Below are positions 15,193-42,298 of a stretch of DNA of 63,784 nucleotides, piece by piece (the first letter of the stretch is position 1; each line of letters starts with the position of its first letter). A program made the translations under genes and the position numbers. Source of the DNA: an uncultured Eubacteriales bacterium (GTDB lineage Bacteria > Bacillota > Clostridia > Lachnospirales > Lachnospiraceae); assembly GCA_949292785.1 (NCBI GenBank), contig CASFBK010000017.1:1-63784 (forward strand), read 5' to 3'. The notes under the pieces were generated by a model. The model saw nothing but the letters and a program-made list of their open reading frames with translations, was not told the origin of the DNA and did no database searches.

Positions 15193-16761
15193 ATGTATCA
15201 TATCTTAATTGTAGATGATGAAAAAATTGAAAGAAGAGGAATACAATTCCTATTAAAGCAGATTGATGTAGAGTGGGAAATAGAGGAAGCTGCAAATGGG
15301 AGAGATGCGTTAGAACTGTTGAAGCAGAAACGGTTCGATATAATGTTGACCGATATAAAAATGCCTTTTATGGACGGATTGCAATTAATAGAAGAAGCAT
15401 TAAAGCTGGATTCTGAGATGAAATGTGTTATTTTCAGCGGATATGGGGAATTTGAATATGCAAGAAAGGCATTATCTTTTCGTGTAGTAGATTATATGTT
15501 AAAGCCGGTAGAACCGGAAGCATTTGAAAAATTAATAAAGAAAATTATTTCTCAGATGGAAAGCCGGAAGCGTTCCAAGGAGATTACCCAAAAAGGATTA
15601 AGCTATGTAAAGGAACATGCGCTGTATGGACTTTTGAATGGAAAATCCGTAGAAGAGGTAAAAAAAGAATCCGGAGAACTGGTGGATATCGGAGAATTTA
15701 AAGATATAAAGTGTTTATTATTGATGGAGTTTGGAAAAGACTTTTTCAGTAAAACAGAGGTAGGGTTTAAAAAGGAAATTTTACAGGTTGCAGGAGAAGA
15801 CGGAGTTTACTTAAATCTCAATCCACAGCAGTCTGTACTGTTATTGGGGTATGATGAAGCGGGGGATGTAAAAACAATAGCGCAGTCTGTCATAAACTAT
15901 ATTAAGGAAACGTATAACGAAGATTGTTTTATCGCGGTTGTTGGCGTTATTACAGAGGTGGGAAATCTGGAAAAGGCGTATAACGAAGCGGAGCTTTTAA
16001 TGGAATCCCGTTTTTATCAGCCGGAACGCCAGATTTATTTCCCGGATAGTGAAGATGTAATCGGGGATGAATCAGAACATTCGAATGATGATACCTTGAT
16101 GAAACAGATGAAACAGGATATTCGGATGAAGGATATTGCAGGACTCAGAGAGCATTTCGAACGTTTATGCAACAAGTATCGGAATAAGACCGATTTTTCA
16201 CAGATTTATATTAAGTTTGTGTTTTCTAATCTATTAAAGGATATCTACAGCAGTATGTCTAAGATGGATGAAACACAGCTCAACGAGGATATTACCCGGT
16301 TATATAGCGTCACCGATTTTAAGACCATTATGGATATGGTAAATCTAAATATCGACCGTCTGGAAGAGAACTTCGGAACCAGTCCGTCTGTTCTTCATCG
16401 GGAGATTGAAACGGTAAAACAATACATATATGAGCATTACAGTGAAGAGCTTAGTGTAGATGCATTGGCGCAAAGTGTTTATATGGCACCGAGTTATTTA
16501 AGTCATGTGTTTAAAAAAGAAACCGGACAGAATATCAGTAAGTTTATTAAGACGTATCGTATGGAGAAGGCAAGAGAGATGTTGGAAAGTACCCATAACA
16601 AAATTGTAAATATCAGTTATGCGGTCGGATATCCCAATGTATCGTATTTTTGTCAGAGTTTTCGGGAATATTTTGGAATCAGTCCTCAGAAGTACAGAAG
16701 CCAGGGGGAAGTAAATGAAGAAGATATACCGTTGGAGCAAAAATCTGAAATTGCGGAATAA
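15193..16761 (+). CDS. YesN-like response regulator with AraC DNA-binding domain
   Basis: A 522-residue transcriptional regulator. The N-terminal receiver domain (1-125) has the acidic pair D8/D9, phosphoacceptor D54 (in MLTDIKMP) and the conserved Lys in MLKPVEP. A middle region of about 250 residues follows, then an AraC-type double helix-turn-helix (about 410-507) containing APSYLSHVFKKETG and NVSYFCQSFREYFG. This is the YesN class that pairs with YesM kinases and controls sugar genes in Firmicutes. The kinase gene overlaps its end by 47 nt. It is the natural candidate regulator of the starch locus around it. The kinase signal and DNA target are inferred. Confidence 0.93.
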   Translation: MYHILIVDDEKIERRGIQFLLKQIDVEWEIEEAANGRDALELLKQKRFDIMLTDIKMPFMDGLQLIEEALKLDSEMKCVIFSGYGEFEYARKALSFRVVDYMLKPVEPEAFEKLIKKIISQMESRKRSKEITQKGLSYVKEHALYGLLNGKSVEEVKKESGELVDIGEFKDIKCLLLMEFGKDFFSKTEVGFKKEILQVAGEDGVYLNLNPQQSVLLLGYDEAGDVKTIAQSVINYIKETYNEDCFIAVVGVITEVGNLEKAYNEAELLMESRFYQPERQIYFPDSEDVIGDESEHSNDDTLMKQMKQDIRMKDIAGLREHFERLCNKYRNKTDFSQIYIKFVFSNLLKDIYSSMSKMDETQLNEDITRLYSVTDFKTIMDMVNLNIDRLEENFGTSPSVLHREIETVKQYIYEHYSEELSVDALAQSVYMAPSYLSHVFKKETGQNISKFIKTYRMEKAREMLESTHNKIVNISYAVGYPNVSYFCQSFREYFGISPQKYRSQGEVNEEDIPLEQKSEIAE

Positions 16762-23166: not shown

Positions 23167-23226
23167 CATGGATATGATATTTTTTTTATTAATTTGATAT
23201 GCAGTTGCCGAAACAGTAAGTAAAAT
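23167..23226 (+). promoter_or_regulatory. Candidate AraC-type operator and promoter of the first GH94 gene
   Basis: The 18-mer CATGGATATGATATTTTT (23167-23184) contains the half-site GATATGATAT (23171-23180). A second half-site, AATTTGATAT (23191-23200), starts 20 bp later. A -10-like TAAAAT begins at 23221, exactly 50 bp after the first half-site. There is no good -35 box, as expected for an activator-dependent promoter. The same layout occurs at 26770 and 32746. Confidence 0.65.
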
Positions 23227-23259
23227 GAAAGACATATTATAGTAAAAGGAGTTTAAAAT

Positions 23260-25986
23260 ATGAATAAAATACGTTTTTTGGACGAGAATGGAACGTTTTT
23301 CCTTAAACATCCGGAACATTACAGTTATCTGTATTTTCCCATTGCAGGAGAAAAAGGAATCAAAAGTTCTTTGACACCTAATTTAGGAGGAGATATAAAG
23401 CTGAACCAGAACGCCTTTCTAATGGAGCCGGTAAGTGTAGAAAATCTGCATAATAATCGTTCCGGAAGAAATTTCTGGTGTCATGTAGAGCATGTGGGAA
23501 GTTGGTCTGTGACAGGAGCATCTGCGGAGGAAGAAAATAAGAAATTTACAAACAGTCAGGATGAGAGTGAACTGATTGCAGGACTTATGTGGCATACTGT
23601 GACTAGAAAGTCGAAAAAGTATCAGTTGGAAGCAAAGGTAACCTCCTTTGTTTCGTTGGAGCACAATGTAGAACTTATGCATGTGGAAATTTGTAATATT
23701 GGGAAAATGGAACAAAGGTTTACTCCTACAGCTGCAATTCCGATTTTCGGAAGAAGTGCAGACAATATTCGAGACCACAGACATGTTACCTCTTTACTGC
23801 ATCGGATAAAAACAATGGATTATGGAATCCGGGTGAAGCCTACGCTGTCTTTTGATGAACGCGGACACCGAAAGAATGATTTGACATATTTCGTGTGTGG
23901 AATTACCGGAAACGGAGAAAAACCAGAGGATTTTTATCCGGTAGTAGAAGAATATATCGGGGAAGGAGGAAGCTTTACCCATCCGCAAAAGGTAGTAAAT
24001 AATGAAAAGGGAGTATCGGCGGGCAGCTATTTTGAGGGAAAGGAAGCAATGGGGGGAATTCATTTCTCCACGCGCGTATTAAAGCCGGAAGAAACCGCAG
24101 CATATACCATTGTAATGGGAATTACGGAACAGGAAGACGAAATAGAAAAGATTCTTTCTGCGTATGGAACAACGGAAAAAGTGGAAAGAGCACAGCAGCA
24201 GGTAAAAGACTATTGGCAGAAAAAGGTAAATGTCAGGTATGAGACAGGAAGTCAGGAATTTAACAATTTTATGCGCTGGGTAAGTTTTCAGCCTATGTTA
24301 AGACGAATCTATGGATGTTCTTTTTTACCGCATCATGATTACGGAAGAGGTGGAAGAGGATGGCGTGATTTGTGGCAGGACTGCTTGTCACTTTTGATTA
24401 TGGAGCCCGGCGAAGTACGTCAGATGATTCTGGACAATTATGCGGGAGTGCGGATGGATGGTACAAATGCCACAATTATTGGAGAACGTCAGGGAGAATT
24501 TATCGCAGATAGAAATGGGATTGCACGTGTATGGATGGATCATGGAGTCTGGCCGTTTATGACGACAAAGCTTTATATTGATCAGACAGGAGATATTGAA
24601 ATATTAAAAGAGGAAACGTTCTATTTCAAGGATGAACAGGCAGCACGAGGAAGCAAGCTGGACGAGCAGTGGGAAACTCAGTATGGAACGTTACAGAAAA
24701 GTAAAAATGATGAGGTGTATAAAGGCAGTATTTTAGAACATTTACTGTTACAGCATTTATGTGCATTTTATGAAGTGGGAGCACACAATCATATCAGACT
24801 CAGAGGAGCAGACTGGAATGACGCACTGGATATGGCACCGGAGCATGGCGAGAGTGTGGCATTTACCTGTGCTTATGCGGGAAATCTTATTCAGCTGTCA
24901 GAATTGCTTATGATTCTGGAAAAGAAATACGGTTGGAAGCAGGTAGAGCTTTTAGAGGAGATAAATATTCTTTTGCAGGATGATAATCAGATGTATGATA
25001 ATATTGCTGCAAAGCAGAATCTTTTAAAAGATTATCTGTCACAGTGTGAGCATAATGTCAGTGGAAAAAAGAGAAAAGTAGAGGTTCGGGAGCTGGCGGA
25101 TAATCTGAAACATAAGGGAGAGTGGCTGCAGAACCATATTCGTAAGACGGAGTGGATTGAAGGAAACGAAGACAACAGGGGAGAAGGATGGTTCAACAGC
25201 TACTATGATAACGATGAAAAACCGGTGGAAGGCTATTTTGAGCAGGGAGTCAGAATGATGCTTACCGGTCAGGTATTTGCAATTATGAGCCAGACAGCAG
25301 AGCATGAACAGGTGGAGAAAATCTGTAAAAGCGCGGACCATTATTTGTACGAAAAAGAGATTGGCGGCTATCGTCTGAATACAGATTTTCATGAGCAGAA
25401 GTTCAATCTGGGAAGAATGTTTGGCTTTGCATATGGGGAAAAAGAAAATGGCGCTGTCTTTTCTCATATGACAGTGATGTATGCAAATGCATTGTACAAA
25501 AGAGGATTTGTGCAGGAAGGCTATAAGGCATTGCAGACCCTTGCCGATACTGCGCTGCGGTTTGAGGTAAGTAAAATCTATCCTGGAATTCCGGAATATT
25601 TTAATGGAGATGGAAGAGGTTTATACCATTATTTGACAGGAGCAGCAAGCTGGTATATGCTCACTGTCATCACAGAAGTATTTGGAGTACATGGAGAAAA
25701 TGGTGATATGGTAATTCAGCCAAAGCTGGTAGGCGAGCAGTTTGATGCAGAAGGAAATGCAGCAGTGGAACTTCGCTTTGCAGAAAAAGACTTCCGCATT
25801 GTTTTTAAAAATCCTCAGAAATTAACTTACGGAGATTATGAAATAAAAAGAGCAGTTTGTGACGGAAAGACAGCGCTGGAATTCCAAGGAAACCATGTAA
25901 TATTTAACAGGGAAAACATTGCTGCGCTGTCGGATATACGTCATAAAATTGAAATAGAGCTGGGAAGTTACCAAGAAGTACGATAA
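23260..25986 (+). CDS. GH94 glycoside phosphorylase, laminaribiose-phosphorylase-like
   Basis: A 908-residue cytosolic GH94 enzyme. The catalytic segment GADWNDALDM holds D518, the position of the general acid in GH94. Family features include an N-terminal beta-sandwich, a helical linker, an (alpha/alpha)6 barrel with YGRGGRGWRDLWQDCL, and a C-terminal cap with GAASWYMLTV. The length of about 900 residues is closer to laminaribiose phosphorylases than to cellobiose or chitobiose phosphorylases (about 800) or cellodextrin phosphorylases (about 980). With a laminarinase-type GH16 in the same locus, phosphorolysis of laminaribiose or short beta-1,3-glucans to glucose 1-phosphate is likely. Its 3' end overlaps the convergent AraC gene by 19 nt. 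The family is certain, the substrate inferred. Confidence 0.88.
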   Translation: MNKIRFLDENGTFFLKHPEHYSYLYFPIAGEKGIKSSLTPNLGGDIKLNQNAFLMEPVSVENLHNNRSGRNFWCHVEHVGSWSVTGASAEEENKKFTNSQDESELIAGLMWHTVTRKSKKYQLEAKVTSFVSLEHNVELMHVEICNIGKMEQRFTPTAAIPIFGRSADNIRDHRHVTSLLHRIKTMDYGIRVKPTLSFDERGHRKNDLTYFVCGITGNGEKPEDFYPVVEEYIGEGGSFTHPQKVVNNEKGVSAGSYFEGKEAMGGIHFSTRVLKPEETAAYTIVMGITEQEDEIEKILSAYGTTEKVERAQQQVKDYWQKKVNVRYETGSQEFNNFMRWVSFQPMLRRIYGCSFLPHHDYGRGGRGWRDLWQDCLSLLIMEPGEVRQMILDNYAGVRMDGTNATIIGERQGEFIADRNGIARVWMDHGVWPFMTTKLYIDQTGDIEILKEETFYFKDEQAARGSKLDEQWETQYGTLQKSKNDEVYKGSILEHLLLQHLCAFYEVGAHNHIRLRGADWNDALDMAPEHGESVAFTCAYAGNLIQLSELLMILEKKYGWKQVELLEEINILLQDDNQMYDNIAAKQNLLKDYLSQCEHNVSGKKRKVEVRELADNLKHKGEWLQNHIRKTEWIEGNEDNRGEGWFNSYYDNDEKPVEGYFEQGVRMMLTGQVFAIMSQTAEHEQVEKICKSADHYLYEKEIGGYRLNTDFHEQKFNLGRMFGFAYGEKENGAVFSHMTVMYANALYKRGFVQEGYKALQTLADTALRFEVSKIYPGIPEYFNGDGRGLYHYLTGAASWYMLTVITEVFGVHGENGDMVIQPKLVGEQFDAEGNAAVELRFAEKDFRIVFKNPQKLTYGDYEIKRAVCDGKTALEFQGNHVIFNRENIAALSDIRHKIEIELGSYQEVR

Positions 25987-26708
25987 TAACGGTCGCGGTA
26001 TTTCTTGGGGGTTAATCCCACAATTTTCTTAAAGATTTGAATAAAGTGACTCTGGGAGGAAAAAGCAAGATAGTTTGCAATTTCAATCAGAGTAAAATCG
26101 GAATATTTTAGTAAGTTTTGGGCTTTCTCTATTTTCTTCTGGCGAATATAGTCACTGATAGAGATACCAAGCTCTTTCTTAAAAAGCCGGGAAAGATAGC
26201 TGGGGGACAGATTCGTATATCCTGCAAGGTCATCAATCGTAATTCGTTCATTTATGTGATTATAAATAAACTCGGAACAAAGAGTAATAGACTTTGAAAT
26301 AATGTTTCTGTTTTTTAACACCAGCATCTTACCGGTAAAATCAAGCGCCATATTGTCGTGGAGTTTAGAAATAGCCTGAATGGATGTACAGGAATCCAAC
26401 TGCAAGATGTAAAAGTCACTGAGGCGGTATGCCTGTTCCAGTTCCATACCTGCATCCACACAGTGTCTTGTTATCATTGCAACGGTAATGACAAAATGAT
26501 ATTTTATGTTAGTTAAGGGATTGGTAGAGAGAATACCCATTCCCTCCGGATTGGTAAAAGCATTTTGGCTGCAATTTTCCCTCACAAAATTCATGTCACC
26601 GGAGCTGACAGCATTGTAAAAGGAATACTCGTCTTCTAAAGGCCGATGTGCCTGAGCTTCTTCACTTTTCTTTAACTCTTGTTGATACCATTCTTTTCGC
26701 AAGTCCAT
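25968..26708 (-). CDS. AraC-family transcriptional regulator of the beta-glucan locus
   Basis: A 246-residue regulator. The N-terminal 140 residues have no cupin pattern that I can see and may bind ligand or mediate dimerisation. The C-terminal 100 residues form an AraC double helix-turn-helix with LSPSYLSRLFKKELG and SSQSHFIQIFKKIVGLTPKKYRD. It is transcribed towards the first GH94 gene (19-nt overlap) and divergently from the GH16 gene. AAAGGAAG precedes the start on the minus strand. Three promoters nearby carry a matching direct-repeat element, so I infer that it activates the GH94, GH16 and importer genes. Confidence 0.92.
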   Translation of the reverse strand: MDLRKEWYQQELKKSEEAQAHRPLEDEYSFYNAVSSGDMNFVRENCSQNAFTNPEGMGILSTNPLTNIKYHFVITVAMITRHCVDAGMELEQAYRLSDFYILQLDSCTSIQAISKLHDNMALDFTGKMLVLKNRNIISKSITLCSEFIYNHINERITIDDLAGYTNLSPSYLSRLFKKELGISISDYIRQKKIEKAQNLLKYSDFTLIEIANYLAFSSQSHFIQIFKKIVGLTPKKYRDRYYRTSW

Positions 26709-26769
26709 ATGGCTCTTCCTTTCGTTTTCCCCTTTAAGATGAATCAGTGATTAAGTAAGAATATTATAG

Positions 26770-26829
26770 CATGAATCTGATATTTTTGTACATGACTTTA
26801 TATATTGAAATGAAATAGAAGCTTATAAT
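26770..26829 (+). promoter_or_regulatory. Candidate AraC-type operator and promoter of the GH16 gene
   Basis: CATGAATCTGATATTTTT (26770-26787) contains half-site AATCTGATAT (26774-26783). A weaker copy, GACTTTATAT, begins 20 bp later (26794). A perfect TATAAT (26824-26829) starts exactly 50 bp after the first half-site. No -35 is visible at the right distance. The 18-mer begins 93 bp before the GH16 start, the same distance as the copy before the first GH94 gene. Confidence 0.7.
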
Positions 26830-26862
26830 AAAGCAACAAAATGATATAAGGAGGAAGCAAAA

Positions 26863-29800
26863 ATGCTGAAAAAAGGTAGAGTAGCAGCTAAGGTGTTTGG
26901 GGTAGTTTTATGTGCAGCACTCGGAACTATGTCAGTATCAGCGGCAGAGATTACGGCGAATGAACCGGAAGTGACGCTGACAACAAGTCAGTCTGAATAT
27001 TCGGGAAGTGAGCAGATTACAGAAACCGTAAAAATTCAGAATACAACGAAGGAAGTGCTGACAGATATTACCATTAAAGGTAATATTCCAGAGGAGTATG
27101 TAACAGAAGCGGGAGTATCAAAACAGTGGGAGTACAGTATATCCGAAGTGGCGGAGGGAGAATTCTCTGAGGTGGCGGTAACTTTTCTGAAAAAAGGGGC
27201 TTTTGAAAATACAGATGGAAATACGAATAATGGAGATGCGGCATCAGAAAATACAACAGAAAGAGGTAAGGCAATACATACGGGAGATTCTTCTCATGTG
27301 GGATTGTGGATTCTCATTTGTGTGATAAGCTTGTTTGCAGTTATTTTATTAGTCAAAAAGAAAAAAGGAAAAAAGGGACTGTCTGTTTTCCTTGCAGCAG
27401 TAATGGCTGGTTCGTTTCTTTGGGGTGAAGCGTTTTCGGCAAATGCGGCGGAGACAGAAGCAACAGCTGAGAATATTATAGAAAAGACAGTAGAAGCGTC
27501 GAAAGATATTGTAGTAGATGGGGAAAAGATAACTTTGGCTGTTCAGGTTACCTACCATGTAGTAGAAGGAACGGACACAGAAGATGTGGATGATGTGTTA
27601 TCCTACGAGGGTTATACCAAGAAGTGGGGAGATGAGTTTGATGGCACAGAACTGAACCGGAATGACTGGAATGTTGAGCTGCATGAACCGGGGTGGGTAA
27701 ATGCAGAATTGCAGAAGTATGTAGATTCTGAAGATAACATTTATCTGGAAGATGGTAAGCTGGTGATTAAGCCGATTCAGACAAAGAATGCAGATGGAAC
27801 ATATTCTTATACATCCGGTCGTGTGAATACTCAGGGGAAGCACGATTTTAAATATGGTCTCTTTGAAGCGCGGGTAAAAGTGCCTGAAGGAAAAGGCTAT
27901 CTTCCGGCATTCTGGCTGATGCCTACCACTGAAAATATATATGGACAGTGGCCAAGATGTGGTGAAATTGACATTATGGAGGTGCACGGAAGCAAAACAG
28001 ACACAGCTTATGGAACCATCCATTACGGCAATCCTCATAAGGAAAATCAGAGTACCTATGTTCTTGAGGACAGCAGCTATGCGGATGAGTATCATACCTT
28101 TGCTGTAGAGTGGGAACCAGGCAAAATCAAGTGGTATGTGGATGGCCGTCTTTATCATGAGACAGATGACTGGTATTCTGCAACGGAAGGACAGGGAGAA
28201 ATTACCTATCCGGCGCCTTTTGACCAGCCATTCTACATGATTTTGAATCTTGCAGTTGGTGGAAGCTGGGTTGGATACCCGGATGAAACAACGGATTTTG
28301 AAAATCAGGCTTATGAAGTTGATTATGTAAGAGTATATCAGAAAGACAGCTATGATGAAAATGTAAATAGACCAGAAAAAGAAGTTGTTCTGAGAGAACC
28401 GGACGCAAATGGAAATTACGTTGTAAATGGAGATTTTGCGGTTGCTGAGAGCTTGACAGATGATAAGGACTGGACGTTCCTTACCGCAAATGGAGGAGAA
28501 GCGACAGCAGAAATTAAGAATAATGCCATTCATATCAATACAACAAAGGAAGGAGATGTAGATTACAGTGTACAGTTAGTGCAACCTAATCTTCCCATGC
28601 AAAAAGGCGCTTATTACAGAGTCAGCTTTGATGCATATGCGGATGCCGCGAGAACCATGGGCGTGAAAATATCCGCGCCGGACAACGGATGGATAGCTTA
28701 TTGGAATGAATCAACGGTAAATTTGTCAACGGAGAAAAAGACTTATACTTATAATTTTAGAATGACTAATGCGGATGATGCAAATGGTCGTCTGGAGTTT
28801 AATATGGGTAATACAGGTTCGGCGGCAGCAATTCATATCAGCAATGTAAAGCTGGAAAAGACCGGTTATGAAGAGATTGCTGAAGATAACACAAAGACAG
28901 TTCTTGCAGATGGTAATTATGTTTATAACGGAGGATTTCAGGAGGGAGATAATCGTTTAGGATATTGGGATATAGACAATAAAGCCGGTGCAGAAATATC
29001 TGTAACAAATGCAGACCCAAGTGACAGACGCTTAAGGATTATAGCGCCGAAAGGAACATCTGAAGAAAATTCGGTTATTATTTCACAGAGCGACCTTGCA
29101 ATGACAGTCGGTGATTATGCATTTAGCTTTGAGGCAGAAGGTGACGCCGGAAAAACAATTACTTTTACAGTAGCAGGCGAAACCGATGCAGCACAGCTTA
29201 CTGGAGGAAGACAAACCGTTAGCAAAAAGTTTGCAATGGGAGAAACAGCAGATAAGAGTGTTCTGTTCAAAATTACAGAGCCGGGAACTTATTATTTGGA
29301 CAATGTCCGTATTGTGGAGGACAGTCTGATTAAGAATGGAAGCTTTTCCGGTGGTTTTGCAGGCTATGAACCTTTTGTTGATGGAAGTGCGAGTGCAAGC
29401 TATGTAGTAGACAGCTTAAATGAGGATAATGCGGCAGACTTTACTATTAATAATACAGGTGACGCCGCTTGGAAGATTCAGCTGAAACAGAATAACATTG
29501 AATTGGAGCAGGGACAATGGTATCGGCTGTCTTTGGACGCAAAGTCCAGTATTGCCAGAAAAATAATGTTTGCAATTCAAAGAGACGGAAGCGTAGATGA
29601 TGACTGGACCCCATATTCCGGAGAGAAAATCATAGAGCTTGGAAATGACTATCAGACGTATGATATTACATTCCAGATGAAAAATGCAACAGACTTAAAG
29701 GCGCTATTAAGTATTTCCATGGGTGCTGTGGATGGTACGCAGATTGCAGAGCAGCATCGAGTATGTATTGATAATATCAAGCTTGAAAAAATAGAGGCAC

Positions 29801-30291
29801 CTGAGATTCCGGAAATTCCGGCAGGTGAGAATTTGTTGCAAAATCCAGATTTTTTAAATGACAGTATGGAACCATGGAGCGAAACGATTGCAAATTGGGA
29901 AGCAGACGACGCCGGGGCTGCCGCAACCAGAACCATTTCGCAGGGAGCTATTGTATATGACGTTACAGACCCGGGAGCAAATGATTGGAATGTGCAGTTA
30001 AAGCAGAGTGGACTTGCTTTGGAAGCAGGTGCGACCTATGAGGTTACCTTTAAAGTGAATTCTACAGCGGCCAGAACAATAAAAACCGGGGTAATGAGCA
30101 CGTCTTATAATTGGTATGGTGGTGCTGACATTCCACTTGAGGCGAATGTAGAGCAGACGGTGACCTATGAATTTGTAATGACGGAAGCTGATTTGGGCGC
30201 AGATTTCTATATTTCTATGGGAAAAATAGAAGGTGAGGATACACCGGCATCCACAATTACTATTTCAGAGATTAAATTAATAAAAAAATAA
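26863..30291 (+). CDS. Secreted GH16 beta-1,3(4)-glucanase (laminarinase type) with four CBM4_9-like modules
   Basis: A 1142-residue surface or secreted enzyme. The signal peptide ends near SAA28, and a beta-rich domain spans about 30-115. An internal HTGD (139-142), a hydrophobic helix (147-164) and KKKKGKKG follow. A second signal-peptide-like segment (173-196, ending ANAA) comes next. The GH16 domain lies at about 245-505 with nucleophile E368, D370 and acid/base E373 in GEIDIMEVHG; the extra Met (ExDxxE) is the laminarinase-type rather than lichenase-type active site. Four CBM4_9-like modules begin near 516, 684, 820 and 986. It probably cuts beta-1,3-glucan or mixed-linkage glucan for the importer and the two GH94 enzymes. 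The internal sorting-like segment is unusual. Confidence 0.9.
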   Translation: MLKKGRVAAKVFGVVLCAALGTMSVSAAEITANEPEVTLTTSQSEYSGSEQITETVKIQNTTKEVLTDITIKGNIPEEYVTEAGVSKQWEYSISEVAEGEFSEVAVTFLKKGAFENTDGNTNNGDAASENTTERGKAIHTGDSSHVGLWILICVISLFAVILLVKKKKGKKGLSVFLAAVMAGSFLWGEAFSANAAETEATAENIIEKTVEASKDIVVDGEKITLAVQVTYHVVEGTDTEDVDDVLSYEGYTKKWGDEFDGTELNRNDWNVELHEPGWVNAELQKYVDSEDNIYLEDGKLVIKPIQTKNADGTYSYTSGRVNTQGKHDFKYGLFEARVKVPEGKGYLPAFWLMPTTENIYGQWPRCGEIDIMEVHGSKTDTAYGTIHYGNPHKENQSTYVLEDSSYADEYHTFAVEWEPGKIKWYVDGRLYHETDDWYSATEGQGEITYPAPFDQPFYMILNLAVGGSWVGYPDETTDFENQAYEVDYVRVYQKDSYDENVNRPEKEVVLREPDANGNYVVNGDFAVAESLTDDKDWTFLTANGGEATAEIKNNAIHINTTKEGDVDYSVQLVQPNLPMQKGAYYRVSFDAYADAARTMGVKISAPDNGWIAYWNESTVNLSTEKKTYTYNFRMTNADDANGRLEFNMGNTGSAAAIHISNVKLEKTGYEEIAEDNTKTVLADGNYVYNGGFQEGDNRLGYWDIDNKAGAEISVTNADPSDRRLRIIAPKGTSEENSVIISQSDLAMTVGDYAFSFEAEGDAGKTITFTVAGETDAAQLTGGRQTVSKKFAMGETADKSVLFKITEPGTYYLDNVRIVEDSLIKNGSFSGGFAGYEPFVDGSASASYVVDSLNEDNAADFTINNTGDAAWKIQLKQNNIELEQGQWYRLSLDAKSSIARKIMFAIQRDGSVDDDWTPYSGEKIIELGNDYQTYDITFQMKNATDLKALLSISMGAVDGTQIAEQHRVCIDNIKLEKIEAPEIPEIPAGENLLQNPDFLNDSMEPWSETIANWEADDAGAAATRTISQGAIVYDVTDPGANDWNVQLKQSGLALEAGATYEVTFKVNSTAARTIKTGVMSTSYNWYGGADIPLEANVEQTVTYEFVMTEADLGADFYISMGKIEGEDTPASTITISEIKLIKK

Positions 30292-30317
30292 ATGGTGTTT
30301 TTCAAAGGAGACAGAAC

Positions 30318-32732
30318 ATGAAATTTGGATATTTTGATGATGATAGAAGGGAATATGTAATTACGAGACCGGATACACCGGCACCTTGGGCGAACTATTT
30401 AGGTTCGCCCGAGTACGGTGCGGTCATTTCCAATAATGCAGGAGGCTATAGCTTTGCAAAATCTGGAGCAAATGGCAGAATTTTACGCTATCTGTTTAAT
30501 GATTTTGACCAGCCGGGCCGTTATATGTATATCCGTGATAATGACAGTAAGGATTACTGGTCTGCATCCTGGCAGCCGGTTGGAAAAGACTTAGCAGTTT
30601 ATAAGAGTGAATGCCGTCATGGAACAGCGTATACAAAAATGCTTGCCGATTACAGTGATATTCATTCTGAGGCGTTATATTATGTTCCTTTAGATGAATC
30701 TTATGAAGTATGGAATCTGAAGCTGACAAATAACTCGGATGTAAAAAGAAGCTTAACAGTTACAGGATATGCAGAATTTACCAATAACAGCAACTATGAA
30801 CAGGACCAGGTCAATTTGCAGTATTCCCAGTTCATTACCAGAACCGTATTCCATGAAAACCGAATCTGTCAGTTGATTCACGGAAATCTGGATGGACTTG
30901 AGGAGGGAAAAGATGTAGATGACAAGATTGTGATAGAACGCTTTTTCGGACTGGAAGGCGCAGAGGTTGATTCCTACTGCGGTGATAAGGAAAAATTCCT
31001 TGGGCGTTATCATGGGTATGAAAATCCGGTAGGAGTAATGACAGGAAGTCTTGGAAACGAACTGAATTATAACGAAAATGGATGTGGAGCCCTTTCTGCC
31101 GTAATCTCATTGGAGCCGGGAGAGTCTAAAAGTGTGGCATTTATTCTGGGAATGAAGTACGATGCGCAAGCAGAAGGTATTTTGAGAAAATATCAGAATC
31201 CGGAAGAAACCTGTAACAGAGAACTGAAGGAACTGATTGCTTACTGGCATGGAAAGCTTTCGCATTTTCAGGTAAAAACCCCAAGTCAGGAATTTAATAC
31301 CATGATTAACACATGGAATGCCTATAACTGTTTTATGACCTTTATCTGGTCCCGTGCAGCGTCATTTATCTATTGCGGTCTCCGTAACGGATATGGGTAT
31401 CGTGATACCGTACAGGATATTCAGGGGGTCATTCATTTAGCACCGGAGATGGCAGTGGAAAAAATCCGTTTTATGCTTTCTGCACAGGTGGATAATGGCG
31501 GCGGTCTGCCCCTTGTAAAGTTCACTCACAATCCGGGACACGAGGATACCCCGGATGACCCTTCCTATGTACAGGAAACCGGGCATCCGGCATATCGGGC
31601 GGATGATGCGCTATGGCTGTTTCCAACGGTCTACAAATATGTTTCGGAATCAGGAAATCTGTCATTTATAGATGAAGTCATTCCTTTTGCCAATAAGGAT
31701 GAAGGTACGGTGTATGAACATTTGAAACGTGCTATTGATTTTTCTATGAATCATCTGGGACCACACGGAATGCCTGCGGGCTTGTATGCGGACTGGAACG
31801 ACTGTCTGAGACTTGGAAAGGATGGAGAGTCCAGCTTCGTAGCGCTTCAGTTCTACCTTGCAATGACAATTTTAAAGAAGTTTGCAGAATATAAAGAGGA
31901 TAAGGAATATATCAAATACCTTGATGAGAGTCAGGAAAAGCTGGGGGCACTTATTCAGGAATTATGCTGGAATGAGGACAGATTTATCCGTGGATTTACG
32001 GAAAAAGGAGAAATCATCGGAAAACGTACCGACCCGGAAGCAAATATGTGGCTTAATCCGCAGAGCTGGGCTGTGATTAGTGGACTTGCCACAGAGGAAC
32101 AGGCAGATGTAGCATTGTATACAGTATACAAGAGATTGAATACAGCGTATGGTGCAATTTTAATGGACCCGCCGTACCATGCACATGCCTTTGATGGAGC
32201 GCTTGCAGTAATTTACAATGCCGGAACCAAAGAAAATGCAGGTATTTTTTCCCAATCTCAGGGCTGGATTATTCTTGCCGAGGCATTGCGTGGGCATGGA
32301 AAACGTGCATTTACCTATTTTATGGAAAATGCACCGGCAGCTCAAAATGACAGGGCAGAAATCCGTAAGCTGGAACCGTATTGCTATGGACAGTTTACGG
32401 AAGGGAAAGCAAGCCCTCATTTTGGCCGCTCTCATGTGCATTGGCTTACCGGAACGGCATCAACGGTCATGGTAGGCTGTGTGGAAGGAATTCTTGGTAT
32501 GCGTCCTGATTTTTACGGACTTAGAATCGCTCCTTCTATTCCAAAAGAATGGGAATCCTTTGAGATTAAAAAAGATTTTAGAGGAAAACATCTGAATATT
32601 ATAGTAAAAAATCCGGGACATGCAGAATCAGGATGCAAGAAACTGATTGTGAATGGAAAGGAAGTAGAAGGAGATTATATTTCTGCGAATTTAATGACGG
32701 AACAGACAGAAATTGAACTTATTATGTCATAA
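30318..32732 (+). CDS. GH94 phosphorylase, cellobiose/chitobiose-phosphorylase-like
   Basis: An 804-residue cytosolic GH94 enzyme. It begins MKFGYFDDDRREYVITRPDT, as do cellobiose and N,N'-diacetylchitobiose phosphorylases. The catalytic Asp is D492 in GLYADWNDCLRLG. Other conserved parts are NGYGYRDTVQDIQG and a C-terminal HWLTGTASTVMV cap. It starts 26 nt after the GH16 gene and shares its transcript, with AAAGGAG upstream. In a beta-glucan locus, cellobiose phosphorylase (yielding glucose 1-phosphate and glucose) is the most sensible role, since mixed-linkage glucans give both beta-1,4 and beta-1,3 disaccharides. Chitobiose cannot be excluded from sequence alone. Confidence 0.88.
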   Translation: MKFGYFDDDRREYVITRPDTPAPWANYLGSPEYGAVISNNAGGYSFAKSGANGRILRYLFNDFDQPGRYMYIRDNDSKDYWSASWQPVGKDLAVYKSECRHGTAYTKMLADYSDIHSEALYYVPLDESYEVWNLKLTNNSDVKRSLTVTGYAEFTNNSNYEQDQVNLQYSQFITRTVFHENRICQLIHGNLDGLEEGKDVDDKIVIERFFGLEGAEVDSYCGDKEKFLGRYHGYENPVGVMTGSLGNELNYNENGCGALSAVISLEPGESKSVAFILGMKYDAQAEGILRKYQNPEETCNRELKELIAYWHGKLSHFQVKTPSQEFNTMINTWNAYNCFMTFIWSRAASFIYCGLRNGYGYRDTVQDIQGVIHLAPEMAVEKIRFMLSAQVDNGGGLPLVKFTHNPGHEDTPDDPSYVQETGHPAYRADDALWLFPTVYKYVSESGNLSFIDEVIPFANKDEGTVYEHLKRAIDFSMNHLGPHGMPAGLYADWNDCLRLGKDGESSFVALQFYLAMTILKKFAEYKEDKEYIKYLDESQEKLGALIQELCWNEDRFIRGFTEKGEIIGKRTDPEANMWLNPQSWAVISGLATEEQADVALYTVYKRLNTAYGAILMDPPYHAHAFDGALAVIYNAGTKENAGIFSQSQGWIILAEALRGHGKRAFTYFMENAPAAQNDRAEIRKLEPYCYGQFTEGKASPHFGRSHVHWLTGTASTVMVGCVEGILGMRPDFYGLRIAPSIPKEWESFEIKKDFRGKHLNIIVKNPGHAESGCKKLIVNGKEVEGDYISANLMTEQTEIELIMS

Positions 32733-32745
32733 AAATATATTACGA

Positions 32746-32805
32746 CATGAATTTGACATTTTTTCAACTAATCTAATATATTACAAGAGAAAATGTCACT
32801 ATAAT
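32746..32805 (+). promoter_or_regulatory. Candidate AraC-type operator and promoter of the beta-glucan importer operon
   Basis: CATGAATTTGACATTTTT (32746-32763) contains half-site AATTTGACAT (32750-32759). The second half-site AATCTAATAT (32770-32779) starts 20 bp later. A perfect TATAAT (32800-32805) starts 50 bp after the first. A TTGACA (32753-32758) lies within the first half-site and could also serve as a -35 for TAATAT (32774-32779), but its spacer is only 15 bp. The geometry matches that of the GH94 and GH16 promoters. Confidence 0.68.
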
Positions 32806-32853
32806 AAGCACATAACAACAAACAAATATAAAAATTGTATGGGAGGAATTACA

Positions 32854-34236
32854 ATGAAGAAAAAAATCGTAAGCGCATTATTATGTCTTAGCATGGCAGC
32901 AACTATGCTGGCCGGATGTGGTTCTGATGGGAAAGAGACCAATACAGAGAAAAAGGACAATACCCAGCAGGAAGCCGGAGCTGACAACGCAGAAAGCGAT
33001 GAAGGAAAAGTATTAAATATTTATGTTTGGAACGAAGAGTTCAAAAGCCGTGTGGCAGCTCACTATCCGGGATATGAGGAAGTTGATGCAACCACAGGAA
33101 AAATCGGAGATGTAACTGTAAAATGGAACATCACACCAACAGATGACAATGCATATCAGAACAATCTGGATGCAGCATTATTAGAACAGGCAGATGCAGC
33201 AGATGATGACAAAATTGATATTTTCTTATTGGAAGCTGATTACGCATTGAAGTATGTAAATACAGATTACACAATGCCAATAAAAGAGCTTGGAATCACA
33301 GAGGAAGATTTAGCAAATCAGTATCCGTATACCAAGGATATTGTTACAGATTCCGAGGGTGAATTAAAGGGACTTTCCTGGCAGGCATGTCCGGGTGCAC
33401 TGTTCTATAACAGAGAGGCTGCAATGGAAATATTTGGAACTTATGAACCGGAAGAGATTCAGAAATATGTAAAGGATTGGGATACCTTTACAGAAACAGC
33501 AAAGACCTTAAAGGATAATGGATATTCCATCGTATCTTCTGCAAACGATACCTATCGTGTATATTCCAACAATGTAACTTCTAAGTGGGTAGAAGATGGT
33601 AAGATTAACATTGATGATAATCTTATGAAATGGGTTGAAGATTCTAAAAAGCTGGTAGAAGCAGGATATGTAGGAACGCATGATATGTGGAGTGATGACT
33701 GGTCAAAAGGATTTTATCCGGATGGAAAAGTATTTGCTTATTTTGGTCCGGCATGGTTGATTAACTTCTGTATGGCAGCAGACACAGAAGGAAGTATTGC
33801 AAATGCAGGTGGATGGGCAGCAACAGAAGGACCACAGGGATTCTACTGGGGCGGTACATGGATTGCAGCAGCAACCGGTACAGATAACCCAACTCTTGTT
33901 AAGGATATTATGCTTACCTTAACTGCAGATGAAGATACCATGATTGATATTGTAAAAGATGATGATGATTTTGTAAACAACAAACCAGCAATGGAAGCAA
34001 TGGCAGAAGACGAGAGCTACCAGAGCGGTGTATTAGGAGGACAGAATCCGTTAGGCATTTTCTGTAAAGGTGTGGATGACCTTGATTTAAGTAATCTTTC
34101 TCCTTATGACGCTGGATGTAACGAAGAATTCCAGGGAGCAATGGCAAACTACTTCAAAGGAAACGCTACATTAGACGAGGCATTAGACCAGTTCTACAAG
34201 GCAGTTGTGGAGAAATATCCGGAATTAACATACTAA
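32854..34236 (+). CDS. ABC transporter substrate-binding lipoprotein of the beta-glucan locus
   Basis: A 460-residue family 1 solute-binding protein. The lipobox MLAGC gives Cys22, then an Asp/Glu/Asn-rich linker. The mature part begins VLNIYVWNEEFKSR. The frame is open from 32713, but GGGAGG (32841-32846) and the lipoprotein signal place the start at 32854. It is followed by two permease genes and lies beside a laminarinase and two GH94 phosphorylases, so beta-gluco-oligosaccharides are the likely ligand. A hairpin separates it from the permeases. Ligand identity is inferred. Confidence 0.9.
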   Translation: MKKKIVSALLCLSMAATMLAGCGSDGKETNTEKKDNTQQEAGADNAESDEGKVLNIYVWNEEFKSRVAAHYPGYEEVDATTGKIGDVTVKWNITPTDDNAYQNNLDAALLEQADAADDDKIDIFLLEADYALKYVNTDYTMPIKELGITEEDLANQYPYTKDIVTDSEGELKGLSWQACPGALFYNREAAMEIFGTYEPEEIQKYVKDWDTFTETAKTLKDNGYSIVSSANDTYRVYSNNVTSKWVEDGKINIDDNLMKWVEDSKKLVEAGYVGTHDMWSDDWSKGFYPDGKVFAYFGPAWLINFCMAADTEGSIANAGGWAATEGPQGFYWGGTWIAAATGTDNPTLVKDIMLTLTADEDTMIDIVKDDDDFVNNKPAMEAMAEDESYQSGVLGGQNPLGIFCKGVDDLDLSNLSPYDAGCNEEFQGAMANYFKGNATLDEALDQFYKAVVEKYPELTY

Positions 34237-34360: not shown

Positions 34361-35272
34361 ATGAAAAAGAAAGGGAAAGTAGTCAGATACAATAAATGGG
34401 GCTACATATTCTTGTTACCATTTATGGTGGTTTTCGTTGTATTCCAGCTAATACCACTATTTACAACTATTTATAATAGTTTTTTTGAAAACTACAGATC
34501 TGGATTGATGCAGGTAGGACCAAATTTTGTTGGGCTTGATAATTATAAAAGATTGTTCGTAGAAGGCGACGTCTGGATATATGCAAAGAATACGTTGATT
34601 ATGTGGATTATGTGTTTCGTGCCACAGATTTTACTGTCCTTGTTACTGGGAGCATGGTTTTCTGATGTAAGCCTGAAATTAAGGGGTTCTCGTTTTTTTA
34701 AGACAGTAATTTATTTACCGAACCTGATTATGGCATCTGCGTTTGCGATGTTGTTCTTTACTTTATTTTCTGATGGGGGTCCGGTCAATTCATTATTGAT
34801 GCAGTTAGGAATTATTCATACACCATATCAGTTCCTTTCTCATGTGGGAAGTACCAGAGGCTTAATTGCACTTATGAACTGCTTGATGTGGTTCGGAAAT
34901 ACAACGATTCTTTTGATGGCTGGTATGATGGGAATTGATACTTCATTATTTGAGGCAGCAGAGGTAGATGGGGCGACTTCTACTCAAGTATTTTTCAGGA
35001 TTACATTACCGTTGCTTCGCCCGATTCTGGTATATGTAATGATTACATCTTTAATTGGTGGCTTGCAGTTATTTGATGTTCCGCAGATTTTAACCAACGG
35101 AACAGGAGACCCGGTACGTTCTTCCATGACGCTTATAATGTTCTTAAATAAGCATTTATACAGTAAGAATTATGGTATGTCTGGTGCATTGTCCGTAATA
35201 CTGTTTATCATTACCGGCATATTAAGTCTCATCGTATTTAAAGTAACCGGTAACGATAAGAGAAAGGGGTGA
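34361..35272 (+). CDS. ABC sugar permease, MalF-type, beta-glucan locus
   Basis: A 303-residue permease with about six transmembrane helices. It opens with a basic segment and the helix IFLLPFMVVFVVFQLIPLF, typical of UgpA/LacF-type permeases. The coupling loop reads EAAEVDGATSTQVFFRITLP. It sits between the binding-protein hairpin and the second permease gene and would form the heterodimeric channel. AAAGGGG precedes the ATG, and the ATPase must come from elsewhere. The role as a transporter is strong; the substrate is from context. Confidence 0.92.
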   Translation: MKKKGKVVRYNKWGYIFLLPFMVVFVVFQLIPLFTTIYNSFFENYRSGLMQVGPNFVGLDNYKRLFVEGDVWIYAKNTLIMWIMCFVPQILLSLLLGAWFSDVSLKLRGSRFFKTVIYLPNLIMASAFAMLFFTLFSDGGPVNSLLMQLGIIHTPYQFLSHVGSTRGLIALMNCLMWFGNTTILLMAGMMGIDTSLFEAAEVDGATSTQVFFRITLPLLRPILVYVMITSLIGGLQLFDVPQILTNGTGDPVRSSMTLIMFLNKHLYSKNYGMSGALSVILFIITGILSLIVFKVTGNDKRKG

Positions 35273-35277
35273 ATTTT

Positions 35278-36144
35278 ATGGCAAAAAATGAAAAACAGAA
35301 TGTGAAACAAGGCATGGGAGTTCATGCAAGAAGAGCCATAGCTTACGTTACGCTTATCATTATTTCCTTTTTTTGTTTGTTTTGGTTCTATATATTGATT
35401 ATTAATGCAACAAGATCGAATGGTGAAATGTCATCAGGATTCACAGCGATTCCAAGCACGCATTTGTTGGAAAACTGGAAGAATCTGTTGGCGGGAACGC
35501 TGCCGGTATGGTCTGGTATGCTGAACAGTTTAATTGTAGCTGTCGGAACTGCTGTATTGTGTGTGTATTTCTCAACTATGACGGCATATGCAATTCATGC
35601 GTATGACTTTAAAATAAAAAAATATGTCTATCCGTTTATATTGATGATTATGATGATTCCGACACAGGTAACAGCGCTTGGTTTTGTGCAGTTGATAGGA
35701 AATCTTGGTTTGGAGGATTCCTTTATTCCACTGATTGTTCCAGCCATTGCATCTCCGGTAACGTTCTTTTATATGAAGCAGTCGATGGAAAGTTCATTGC
35801 CGTTGTCATTGATTGAGGCGGCGCGTATTGACGGTTCTGGAGAGTTCCGTACATTTAACCATATTGTATTACCATTGATGAAACCTGCTATTGCAGTACA
35901 AGCAATTTTTTCATTTGTAAGCAGTTGGAACAATTACTTTACCCCTGCATTGATTTTGCATGATAATAAAAAGAAAACCCTTCCAATTTTGATTGCACAG
36001 CTTCGTTCTGCTGACTGGTTGAAGTTTGATATGGGACAGGTATATGTAATGATTGCGTTTTCTATTTTCCCGGTTATCATTGTGTATTTGATTCTTTCTA
36101 AGCATATCGTACAAGGTGTAGCATTGGGAAGTGTAAAAGAGTAA
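35278..36144 (+). CDS. ABC sugar permease, MalG-type, beta-glucan locus
   Basis: A permease of 288 residues with about six helices and the coupling loop EAARIDGSGEFRTFNHIVLP. The C-terminus KHIVQGVALGSVKE is typical of MalG/LacG-type permeases. A GTG at 35269 overlaps the upstream stop, but AAAGGGGTG is best spaced for the ATG at 35278. It completes the beta-glucan importer. The next reading frame, 12 nt downstream, is a broken surface-protein gene that may be cotranscribed. Confidence 0.92.
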   Translation: MAKNEKQNVKQGMGVHARRAIAYVTLIIISFFCLFWFYILIINATRSNGEMSSGFTAIPSTHLLENWKNLLAGTLPVWSGMLNSLIVAVGTAVLCVYFSTMTAYAIHAYDFKIKKYVYPFILMIMMIPTQVTALGFVQLIGNLGLEDSFIPLIVPAIASPVTFFYMKQSMESSLPLSLIEAARIDGSGEFRTFNHIVLPLMKPAIAVQAIFSFVSSWNNYFTPALILHDNKKKTLPILIAQLRSADWLKFDMGQVYVMIAFSIFPVIIVYLILSKHIVQGVALGSVKE

Positions 36145-36156
36145 GGAAGTTGTTTT

Positions 36157-39100
36157 ATGAAAAAAAGAATGATTCCCTGTCTGTCTGCGGTCTTGAGTTT
36201 GGTCTTTGTTTTTTCTATGGCGCTAAATAGAAGTGTATATGCGAATGAGGGGATGACGGAATCGTCCCCCTTAGTGAAGAAGCAGAGATTCTGGATGAGA
36301 CAGATTCAGAAAAATTTGTAAACAATGGAGTCTCCTTGTTTGCGGTAGTGTGGACTTCTGATGAGATTGGAATAAAAGATGTTGCTTCAAATATCGAGAA
36401 CACAAATGTTGTCATCGATGACGGAAAATATGCGATTGTCAGCTCTTATATGATTGAGGGGAACTCTAGCCGAACAAGAGGAACTGCATTGCAGGCGGAA
36501 GTAATGGAAGGCAAGGATGGATACTTAAAAGATAAAGAAGTTTCTATTACCCAGATTGATAGGCGTGAAGGGGAAAATTATGGTGCACAATATGTATATT
36601 CAAATTCGGAGGTGACTGTCTGGACATTTGAATCAACCGGAACACCTGGCGAATATTATGTTTCGGTTGATACAGAAGAGGGAACACGATATTTGAATGT
36701 CAATGGAGATAGTTTGAGTCTGGCTGAGGAAAAACAGGTACTAACGCTGGTTCAGAGCGAAAAAACGAATCTCTATTATTTACGTAATGCTGATGGGTAT
36801 CAGATTAGTTTGAGTGGGGATGCAATGGGAAATGGCTTCCATGCCTGCTACGCAAGGCAGAATCCTAGCGACCATATTATGTTGTGCGCATTAATCGATA
36901 CTCCGGCACCATCACGATATGCGGATAAACTAAGTGTTTCTGATACGGTGGCAGGTGAGCAGTATGTCATCTACACAAAAATTGATGGTGAATTTTATGC
37001 TGTTTCTTCTGAAAATACGTTGGTTAAGGTGTACGATGAAGGAACCAGAATTGGATGGAGAGCAAAAGATGAGAAGTTGAATAATCTGCTTTGGAAATTG
37101 GATTATTATTCTGACCCTGATGAGAAGAATGGTAATCAGTGTTATGCCGGATTGTTAAACGCAGGAGCGAACGGACAGTATTTGACGCCGTTAAGCGAAG
37201 GGGTATATGTACCAAATGATAAAGAGGATGATATCGATGACGGTGTAGTTCTGGAGGGAAAAGACGCTGGGGAATACAGTACCCTCATTCGTGCATGGGA
37301 TTCCTCAGCTAATAATGGAACTGGTGCGGCATTTACACTTGGATATGAGAAAAATGCAGACGGGGATTATATATTAGTAAGTGATTCTCATAATTGGAAT
37401 GATGAAGATAAAAATACACAATTCATGTTTGCCAGATATACGACAAAAAGTGATGATGAGACCACAGAACCTACCGAAGTTGAGACGGTAGACAGCAAAT
37501 CTATGGGCGTAAAAATCACGATGTTTGATTATAAAGATGGAAATGAAATAAATGGCGGGTCTGCTGGTGCAAATGGTCAGAATACACAATGGCGTACAGG
37601 AGAGCAGGCAGCTTTATTGGGAGATATGACAGCCGCTCCATTTGAGCAGGGGATTGTGGAAAGCGTACTTACAAACGGTTATCCTGTAATTACGAACGAA
37701 TATGGAATTGGGAACCTCAATAACGCTCAGTATAATAGAACGTTTGGGGCATCTTTAGACAAGTTATTTTCAGGGGGACAAGAAGCCAATCATCTATTCT
37801 TGAAAAGTGTATATGATGCTACAGGATACATGTCATTTAGTTCTTTTGAGAACTATGCCGTTCTGCAAGAGAGTGGCGATTTCAAGGTTTATGAAGAGCT
37901 GGGCGCACCTGTTCAAATAATCACAGGGCAGGAACAAAAATATATGTTCGCGCTCACGCGCGGTAATTTTATGCCCTACAACGATATTACAACAATTAAC
38001 AAGGATAATTTTGTGAATTACAATCTCCATGATGAGGATGGGAACCCGTTGGCTCCCGACAATCCCAGATTTGGCGAGGTACTTTATGCAATTGGAGAAC
38101 CGAATTATTTGTTCGGTATGAAGATAGAAGCTACTTTTTATCAGACAAGATACGGAACAACGGATGGAACAGAAAATGGAGAGTCTACGGTATATCGTTT
38201 TAACGGTGATGATGACCTGTGGATATTTATTGATGATGCTTTGGTACTGGATGTTGGCGGTATTCATGATGCACATTCGGGAGAAATAAATTTCCAGACA
38301 GGAGCAATTTCCTATGAGGTTGAGCCGGCGGATACCAAAGCTCCGCACACAATTAAAGAAGCATTTGAAAAAGCAGGAATTCTTCCTGATGGAAAACAAA
38401 CAAAATGGCCGGTGGAAGGCGCTGATGCATCAGCATATACCGCCTTATTAGGCTCGGATACTTCTGAAGTATTAACAAAGGAACAAGTTGAGAACATAAT
38501 TGACTATTATTTTAGCGGTGAAACTTTTAGAGATTATTCTGCACATGAGTTTAAGATGTTCTATATGGAGCGTGGTGCTGGAGCATCCAATCTGAAGATG
38601 GAGATGAATATATCTTTTGTTCCTCCTGCTGAGTTCTATGTGGAAAAACAGATTTCCGGTACTGAAATAAAAGATAAATACACAGATAAGGAATAGGCAT
38701 TTAAGGCATACATAAAAGATACTGCTGATATTAATTTTAGAGAAGTGACGAGCAAGGATTATGGTGTGTATACCAAGGGTCAAAGGATTGGAAAGGCAGT
38801 TGAGTTTGGTGAAGATAATATCTTTTACTTAAAGGAAGGAGAGGCAGTAAAATTTGTAGTCTCTAATAATCTGGTTGAATATTATGTAGAGGAAGTAAAG
38901 ATTTCGGAAGCGGATACAGCAGCATTTGATACCTTTTTTAATGGTTATGCGGTTAGCAAAAATGGGATTTATGGAAAAGACGAAGACGGATATTGGCCCG
39001 AGGAATATAAAAGTGAATTGTATAAATGGGGAGAAGATGAGGAAGGAAATCAATTATATGCAGTTCGAAGTATGACATTAGTGGCGGATTCCGGTAAAAC

Positions 39101-39956
39101 GATATCGGCTATAGACGGTGGACAAGTGATTGTTCAAAATCATTTGTTGGTTGATAATGCCCATTGGAATCTGAAAGAGTTGGTAATTGAGAAAAAACTG
39201 AAAGGTAGCTCAGGGAAAGAGGAAGTCCGGTATCCGGATTCAAATTCGCCGACCTATTCTTACCGTGTCAGACTTGGAGACAGGGCGGAGAATATTAAAC
39301 TTTATAGTGATGCTTTCTACCTTGTAAAAGATGGGTATTATTATAAAAAAGTAAATGGTCTGCCGGTAAAGACAGAAATCCGGTATTCAGATAGTAGTTT
39401 TGACATTCCTGTTTACGATAATGTCAGTGATGATGGTATTATCTCCGGTATTCCGGCAGGATTCAGCGTAGTCATCAAGGGAATTGTTCCGGGAACCTAT
39501 TTCACGGTGGAAGAAGTGAATCTGCCGGATGAATCCGAGCATGTTTCGACAGTGATGGATTCTAATTGGAAATGGAATGATGCTGATGAGGAAAACTATA
39601 ATGCTGCTGAAGTGAGCGATGCGCTCAAAGAAGAATATAAAAATCTCGAATACGGTGTTATTGGTCAAATCATCTCAGGGAATGGGAAGAACAATGGCGC
39701 ACACATCACCGTTACCAATGCATGTTACAAGAGTACAGATGGGGACGAGGGACAGGAAAAACCGCAGAACAGCGATGAGAGCCGCAGTGATGATTTGCAG
39801 AATGACAGTGACAATCCGCAGAACAATGGTGACGGCATCTGGAAGCTGCCAATTACCGGAGATGCCGGCGATATCGTATTATGGATTGAAATACTGTTGG
39901 CAAGTGCAGCCCTGATTGTATTTTTGAAAAATACTATTGACAGAAATGCACTTTAA
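36157..39956 (+). pseudogene. Broken LPxTG surface protein with fibro-slime/PA14-like domain (frameshift and in-frame stop)
   Basis: Read as one gene, this would encode about 1266 residues. A signal peptide starts at 36157 (MKKRMIPCLSAVLSLV, cleaved near VYA) after AAGGAAG. That frame ends at 36321. The rest is in another frame; adding one G to GGGG at 36249-36252 joins the two into a continuous acidic sequence. A single TAG at 38694-38696 then interrupts the same frame, which continues to 39956. The middle carries a fibro-slime/PA14-like domain with FNGDDDLWIFIDDALVLDVGG (about 38200-38265). The end is KLPITGDAGD plus a helix, a sortase-type signal with a weak basic tail. It was probably an adhesin or cell-surface protein. 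Sequencing error at either site is possible. Confidence 0.8.
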
Positions 39957-42231: not shown

Positions 42232-42298
42232 AAAGATATATAGAACAAAGTGATAGAAGTCAAAGATGTATGATAAAGAAACCATTGGAGGAACGAAT

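Follow-up and report, generated by a model that had tools for sequence, protein, structure and literature searches.

This analysis concerns a stretch of 63,784 nucleotides (the window; contig CASFBK010000017.1 of assembly GCA_949292785.1) from an uncultured Eubacteriales bacterium of the family Lachnospiraceae, and a site of 18 bases that occurs three times in it, in neighbouring promoters for β-glucan digestion. The three copies precede GH94a, GH16-GH94b and the importer genes, and they are very probably class II operators through which the AraC-type regulator encoded at 25968-26708 activates a β-glucan regulon of three operons. By sequence comparison we could show the sites, the spacing of their two halves, the core of the second half, the offset of the -10 hexamer, the missing -35 and the linkage to the AraC gene.

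The regulator would turn on GH94a, GH16-GH94b, and the binding protein with its permeases, upon sensing a β-glucan oligosaccharide. Transcription is predicted to start about 7 nucleotides after the -10, and this would place a strong distal half-site (A) at about -66 to -49 from the start and a weaker proximal half-site (B) at about -46 to -29, over the place of the -35. A and B would be occupied in tandem by two regulator subunits on the same face of the DNA, and the subunit on B would replace the -35 contact with RNA polymerase, which is class II activation. At the GH16 promoter the regulator on A would also repress its own gene while activating GH16-GH94b.

The three sites in the window

A search of the window with the motif CATGRATHTGAYATTTTT gave exact matches at 23167, 26770 and 32746, as in the preliminary description of this DNA; the remaining three matches have three mismatches each. 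Before GH94a, half-site A lies at 23167..23184, half-site B (core TTTGATAT, in the +20 register) at 23187..23204 and the -10 hexamer at 23221..23226. The corresponding elements are at 26770..26787, 26790..26807 (core TTTATATA) and 26824..26829 before GH16, and at 32746..32763, 32766..32783 (core TCTAATATA) and 32800..32805 before the importer. All are on the plus strand, and B is placed by its sequence and by the conservation of its columns in 89 sites of relatives.

The -10-like hexamers read TAAAAT (GH94), TATAAT (GH16) and TATAAT (importer), as reported. They had been placed at +50, but their actual start is +54 from the C of CATG (23221, 26824 and 32800), and the end coordinate given in the preliminary description itself, 32805, agrees with +54 and not with +50. 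A hexamer of this type (TADDAT) is found at +54 in 27/27 sites of the window and the genus. A second, related ten-mer had been described at +20. This is true of the core T-N-R-TAT, which is the element repeated at +20 in all three window promoters, but not of the ten-mer with 7 of 10 matches at GH16 (CATGACTTTA), which begins at +21; at exactly +20 the ten-mer matches, counted by eye, are 6/10 for GH94, 2/10 for GH16 and 5/10 for the importer. Offset 20 gives the highest mean 16-mer self-identity among offsets 12-59 (8.7/16; mean 4.8, standard deviation 1.2). The A/B repeat is faint in the window alone and stands out only across many sites.

The distance of 93 bp from the site to the ATG holds for both the GH94 copy (23260) and the GH16 copy (26863), while the importer ATG at 32854 is 108 bp from its site. 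Among relatives the distance from the site to the first possible start, counted mechanically, varies from about 69 to 280 bp, so the shared 93 bp looks like a coincidence.

Recovery of the sites in the genome

Two motif models were used: R1, a sequence-only model trained on 18 sites from genus relatives, and R2, made from 59 sites, none of them from this genome, in loci collected by AraC homology. In the 3.65 Mb genome, 150 of 4915 candidates were scored with R1 and 150 of 5840 with R2. The top three R2 matches are the copies before the importer (E 1.1e-10), GH16 (4.3e-10) and GH94a (1.1e-6), and the next match is at 0.018. The many unrelated matches with the same block spacing, which had been named as a sign against a dedicated operator, were not seen; there are three matches and then a gap. 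A weight matrix was also built on 18 sites from other genomes, and by it the window sites rank 1, 2 and 3 of all window positions on both strands. In 40.08 million positions of random sequence the scores of the importer and GH16 copies were reached 0 times and that of the GH94 copy 17 times.

Co-occurrence of the motif with the AraC gene

Orthologues of the AraC gene product (54-57% identity) are present in 10/28 genus-mates, and the motif is present in 10/10 of these. When R1 was run over the 29 genomes of the genus, 23 matches fell below 1e-9, all of them in the 10 genus-mates that carry the orthologue, although most of the 23 are training sites of R1 or near copies. Two matches come from outside the training set (G022:C10, 2.9e-10; G027:C18, 5.3e-5), and both precede GH16 orthologues (62-63% identity) on other contigs. 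The best R1 match in the 18 genus-mates without an orthologue is a partial one at 8.8e-4 (G002). In the loci of the 10 genus-mates with an orthologue, the permease and binding-protein genes come first, then two back-to-back sites, then GH94a-GH94b and last a convergent AraC gene; the gene order in the window differs from this, but the target families are the same.

The family survey covered 299 genomes, with cut-offs of E 1e-4 for the motif and 1e-70 for AraC, stricter filters and 17 motif candidates scored per genome. The motif was found in 21 genomes, AraC in 27 and both in 17 (Fisher 2e-17, relatedness ignored). There are four genomes with the motif and without AraC at the cut-off: G202, G214, G292 and G195. 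An AraC gene lies beside the site in the first three, where it is cut by the contig end (G202), split into two frames (G214) or 46% identical (G292). In G214 (L200:15217-15965) the AraC gene matches as two pieces and its two sites are intact. GH94b is present in 49 family genomes; of these, 16/21 with AraC and 2/28 without AraC at the cut-off carry the motif, and the two exceptions are G202 and G214, each with the cut or split AraC gene adjoining the site. On these counts the motif tracks the AraC gene rather than GH94 alone. No site was found in five loci of distant AraC homologues (37-47% identity; L051-L055), yet G292 at 46% has one. The co-occurrence in genus-mates and in the 299 family genomes supports the earlier proposal that these sites make up a regulon under the AraC gene (25968-26708).

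Promoter architecture in relatives

An AraC alignment scan of species genomes was made and the best 80 of 553 relatives were taken; three of these loci (L160-L162) appear to repeat genomes already used (G025, G024 and G017) and are not independent. Half-site A (at most 2 mismatches) with a -10 at +54 is present in 60/80 loci, or 65/80 with +55 allowed. When 60 shuffled motifs were put through the same test, the mean was 0.38 loci and the maximum 9. Without the -10 requirement there are 138 A sites in 69 loci, and a -10-like hexamer begins at +54 in 86 of these, at +55 in 14 and at +31 in 28.

The 89 distinct sites with a hexamer at +54 give the consensus ATGTCATGAATYTGATATTTTT for half-site A. 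In half-site B, strong conservation is limited to the positions from about +26 to about +34, which align with A at a shift of 20 bp: T28 and T31 are found in 100% of the sites, T33 in 97% and A32 in 90%, and B was not used in selecting them. The self-identity peak in this set is again at offset 20 (8.70/16; mean 5.06, standard deviation 0.98). The interval from B to the -10 is little conserved, with a weak preference for A at +46 to +48. A TTGACA-like hexamer (at least 4/6) occurs at spacers of 15, 16, 17, 18 and 19 bp in 8, 7, 2, 0 and 0 of 110 sites; for the 16 sites whose hexamer is at +55, the offsets were likewise taken from +54. The sequence reads as a promoter without a -35, with a putative activator half-site in its place. 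Operators for class II activation from tandem half-sites are characterised by two half-sites in direct repeat, spaced by about two helical turns, with the proximal one at -35, a weak -35 and a fixed distance to the -10. The sites show these features, though the repeat is weak in any single promoter of the window. The earlier description of tandem half-sites about two turns apart near -35 is borne out in that the core recurs after 20 bp, where the -35 region is not conserved.

The genes 3' of the 110 sites encode the importer binding protein (34), GH94a (24), GH94b (15), GH16 (12) or other products (21), and four are cut off. In Streptococcus henryi, S. orisratti, S. equinus (two strains) and S. 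vicugnae (loci L149, L150, L152, L153 and L158) there are sites before binding-protein genes whose products are 40.7-41.4% identical to that of the window, and in all of these except S. henryi there is also a site before GH94a (54-56%). No site was found in S. porci (L154). The regulator, its targets and its operators may have moved together between orders.

In 11/80 loci a copy of the operator precedes a gene for a sugar-binding lipoprotein, which is followed by a gene for a methyl-accepting chemotaxis protein (L090, L093, L094, L095, L096, L098, L100, L110, L111, L122 and L141). The two lipoproteins scanned are Peripla_BP_4 proteins, and the chemoreceptors scanned (L094 and L111) both have a CBM_4_9 domain. 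This suggests that taxis is under the same switch as β-glucan digestion. There is also a site before a gene for a 2036-residue GH16 protein with six CBM_4_9 stretches (L126:10830-16940) and one before a GH3 gene (L136:7238-9775), and the regulons of these relatives appear to be wider.

The predicted promoter of the AraC gene

The AraC gene is divergent from the site in 31/110 cases. In 28/31 of these ATTATA (TATAAT on the AraC strand) begins at -7, compared with 5/79 of the others (Fisher 8e-18), and a -35-like match is found at +17 in 22/31 compared with 12/79; shared descent of the divergent promoters, some of which are near-identical, inflates these counts. The window has the same arrangement on the minus strand (26792-26763), with a predicted -35-like TGTACA (26787..26792), a spacer of 18 bp and a predicted -10 TATAAT with a preceding TG (26763..26768) that abuts half-site A. 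Half-site A before GH16 is therefore the spacer between the -35 and -10 of the AraC gene's predicted promoter. That the AraC -10 adjoins the distal half-site, which is new here, implies autorepression, from which we infer that the gene would limit its own expression. The overlap may also explain the GTACAT that follows A in the GH16/GH94b class and is the source of the ten-mer at +21.

The regulator and the genes of the locus

The AraC-type regulator (25968..26708, minus strand, 246 residues) belongs to the AraC/XylS family by its C-terminal domain with two helix-turn-helix motifs (Pfam HTH_18, 1.6e-22), which is a confident domain in the AlphaFold2 model (mean pLDDT, the per-residue confidence score, 89). 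Residues 1-134 are predicted by AlphaFold2 to form six helices and no strand (pLDDT 91.5), and this N-terminal domain gave no significant Pfam match and no confident structural match. A cupin N-terminal domain is typical of the classical arabinose AraC and is not required for the AraC/XylS family; by prediction only, the regulator lacks such a sugar-binding domain. Against TIGR04094 (YSIRK-adjacent AraC regulators) it scores 133.4 bits, below the curated cut-off of 200. Both recognition regions, S-SYLSRLFKK and FSSQSHFIQ, are almost constant in the 38 printed carriers, with exceptions such as L126 and L156.

The genes that follow the sites are all on the plus strand. GH94a (23260..25986, 908 residues) is laminaribiose phosphorylase-like and aligns with a solved laminaribiose phosphorylase over almost its full length (6ggy over residues 5-902, E 1.2e-301). 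The GH16 endo-β-glucanase (26863..30291, 1142 residues) matches laminarinases and β-1,3(4)-glucanases and carries CBM_4_9 modules. GH94b (30318..32732, 804 residues) is a phosphorylase that matches 8bou, which we take to be the Blautia producta enzyme, over its full length with 1537 bits. The importer consists of a solute-binding protein (32854..34236, 460 residues; 5ixp, E 4.3e-11; 8bfy, E 3.3e-5) and two ABC permeases (34361..36144; BPD_transp_1). A longer open reading frame for the binding protein (32713-34236) gave no Pfam match at 0.001. Two proteins encoded 3' of the importer, of 786 residues (36336-38696) and 403 residues (38745-39956), have no Pfam match, and the former has a fibro-slime domain match in NCBIfam.

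Alternative explanations

It is improbable that the main effect of the regulator at these sites is to repress the three operons until β-glucan relieves the repression. The induction data for Blautia producta fit relief of repression equally well (PMC10318527) and B overlaps the polymerase site, but no usable -35 is kept at normal spacing, A has a fixed phase and is upstream of where the polymerase binds, and at XylS/Pm an overlap of tandem half-sites with the polymerase site is the known arrangement for an activator (PMC5481539). We consider it very improbable that another regulator binds the sites, although the window encodes both a YesN-type response regulator (15193-16761), which also has an AraC-type helix-turn-helix, and a LacI-type protein (42266-43339). 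Neither was found in 12 loci of genus-mates (L039-L050), and among the 80 loci the window's YesN-type protein has 4 matches and the LacI-type protein 1, compared with 80/80 for AraC because it was the query. The operator of a LacI-type protein is a short inverted repeat, and the importer promoter does hold an imperfect one spanning A and B (32754-32775 with 32777-32798; arms of 22 nucleotides, 77% complementary), but a repeat search found none over A and B at the GH94 or GH16 promoters.

More improbable still is an ordinary σA promoter in which A would be the -35 and B the -10, and neither a half-site for a protein. The importer copy can be read as TTGACA, 18 bp, TATATT (11/12) and the GH16 copy as CTGATA, 18 bp, TATATT (9/12), and 28/138 A sites have a -10-like hexamer at +31. 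Hexamers at +54 or +55 are commoner, however (100 compared with 28 of 138), and the sixth base of such a -10, at +36, is T in only 33% of the 89 sites. The CATG and the T-run of A are conserved though no -35 needs them, and one would not expect an ordinary promoter to go with a particular AraC gene.

Several observations weigh against class II operators of the AraC-type regulator. A search for direct repeats of at least 8 bases found none in any of the three window promoters, in the importer and GH16 promoters of relatives the likeness of B to A at offset 20 is low (5.8 and 7.5/16) and not at the best offset, and a TTGACA-like hexamer with a 21-bp spacer is found in 47/110 sites, where it is the B core itself. 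R1 ranks the importer copy first in the own genome (E 2.6e-4) and the GH16 copy fourth (0.05), and its match list is without the GH94a site. No strict site is present in 15/80 loci; several of the 15 are represented by short stretches, whereas for L099, L133 and L154 the stretch has its full 20 kb. In the family survey, 10/27 AraC-positive genomes are without the motif at E 1e-4. Six of the ten (all except G181, G212, G231 and G251) were inspected and five have weaker sites, which were not compared with shuffles; in G264, where AraC is present, no site was found in the fetched locus. G195 has an A-type match only, without a -10 and without AraC in the fetched stretch. Finally, R2 was trained on loci fetched by AraC homology, and some of the family genomes appear to be duplicate records (G243 and L111 agree in their match coordinates). 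The counts are for these reasons not independent, and relatedness is ignored in the P-values.

A proposed β-glucan regulon in gut Firmicutes

Taken together, the data suggest a testable operator and regulator for the use of cereal and laminarin-type β-glucan in a large group of gut Firmicutes. With R2 the members of the regulon can be predicted from the sequence, also where they lie outside the locus. From the overlap with the promoter of the regulator gene one would expect a specific self-limiting circuit, and the members with chemoreceptors point to a common switch for taxis and digestion. A wider reading is plausible, though somewhat less likely than not: by means of one rigid module of 60 bp, a single AraC-type activator with a helical sensor would run a portable β-glucan regulon in genomes of Lachnospiraceae, of the Faecalibacterium type and of ruminal-type Streptococcus. 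In its divergent form one half-site would serve two promoters, as the 18-bp spacer of the regulator promoter and as the distal activating site of the glucanase operon, and the level of the regulator would be set by autorepression. Some members would also drive a sugar-binding lipoprotein and a chemoreceptor with a carbohydrate-binding module, which would tie taxis to digestion. A literature search found no paper describing this operator.

Comparison with known systems

In Escherichia coli, AraC at araI1-I2 has a strong distal half-site and a weak proximal half-site at -35, and its regulator gene is divergent and self-repressed. The system described here has the same order of half-sites and a divergent regulator gene, with probable self-repression. 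It differs in that the sugar-binding cupin of E. coli AraC is replaced by a predicted helical N-terminal domain, and in that the activating half-site itself lies within the regulator's predicted promoter. The sensor domain of XylS also differs from that of the regulator here. As at XylS/Pm, there are two direct-repeat half-sites, which would be bound by two monomers in tandem, and the sites of activator and RNA polymerase overlap (PMC5481539). The repeats at Pm are of 15 bp (TGCA-N6-GGTA) whereas the distal half-site here is of the TCATGAATYTGATATTTTT type, and Pm is a σ32/σ38 promoter whereas the -10 here is σA-like (PMC5481539).

The Blautia producta locus bp1313-bp1318 has the same set of GH16, GH94, AraC, binding protein and transporter genes and is induced by barley β-glucan (PMC10318527). 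RNA levels on this substrate rose 5.2-fold for GH16, 3.9-fold for GH94, 4.5- to 5-fold for the importer and 77-fold for the binding protein, with araC at 0.76-fold as printed (PMC10318527). For that published locus there are induction data and, by a word search of the main text, in which "promoter" and "operon" are absent, no promoter analysis (PMC10318527). The window differs from it by a further GH94, one that resembles laminaribiose phosphorylase, and by its three separate operators. In the celC operon of Clostridium thermocellum, another member of the Clostridia, β-1,3-glucanases are likewise under control, and the title cited for it names laminaribiose as inducer (PMC5171806). The regulator there is of the LacI/GalR family, in contrast with the predicted AraC-type activator on tandem sites in the window (PMC5171806).

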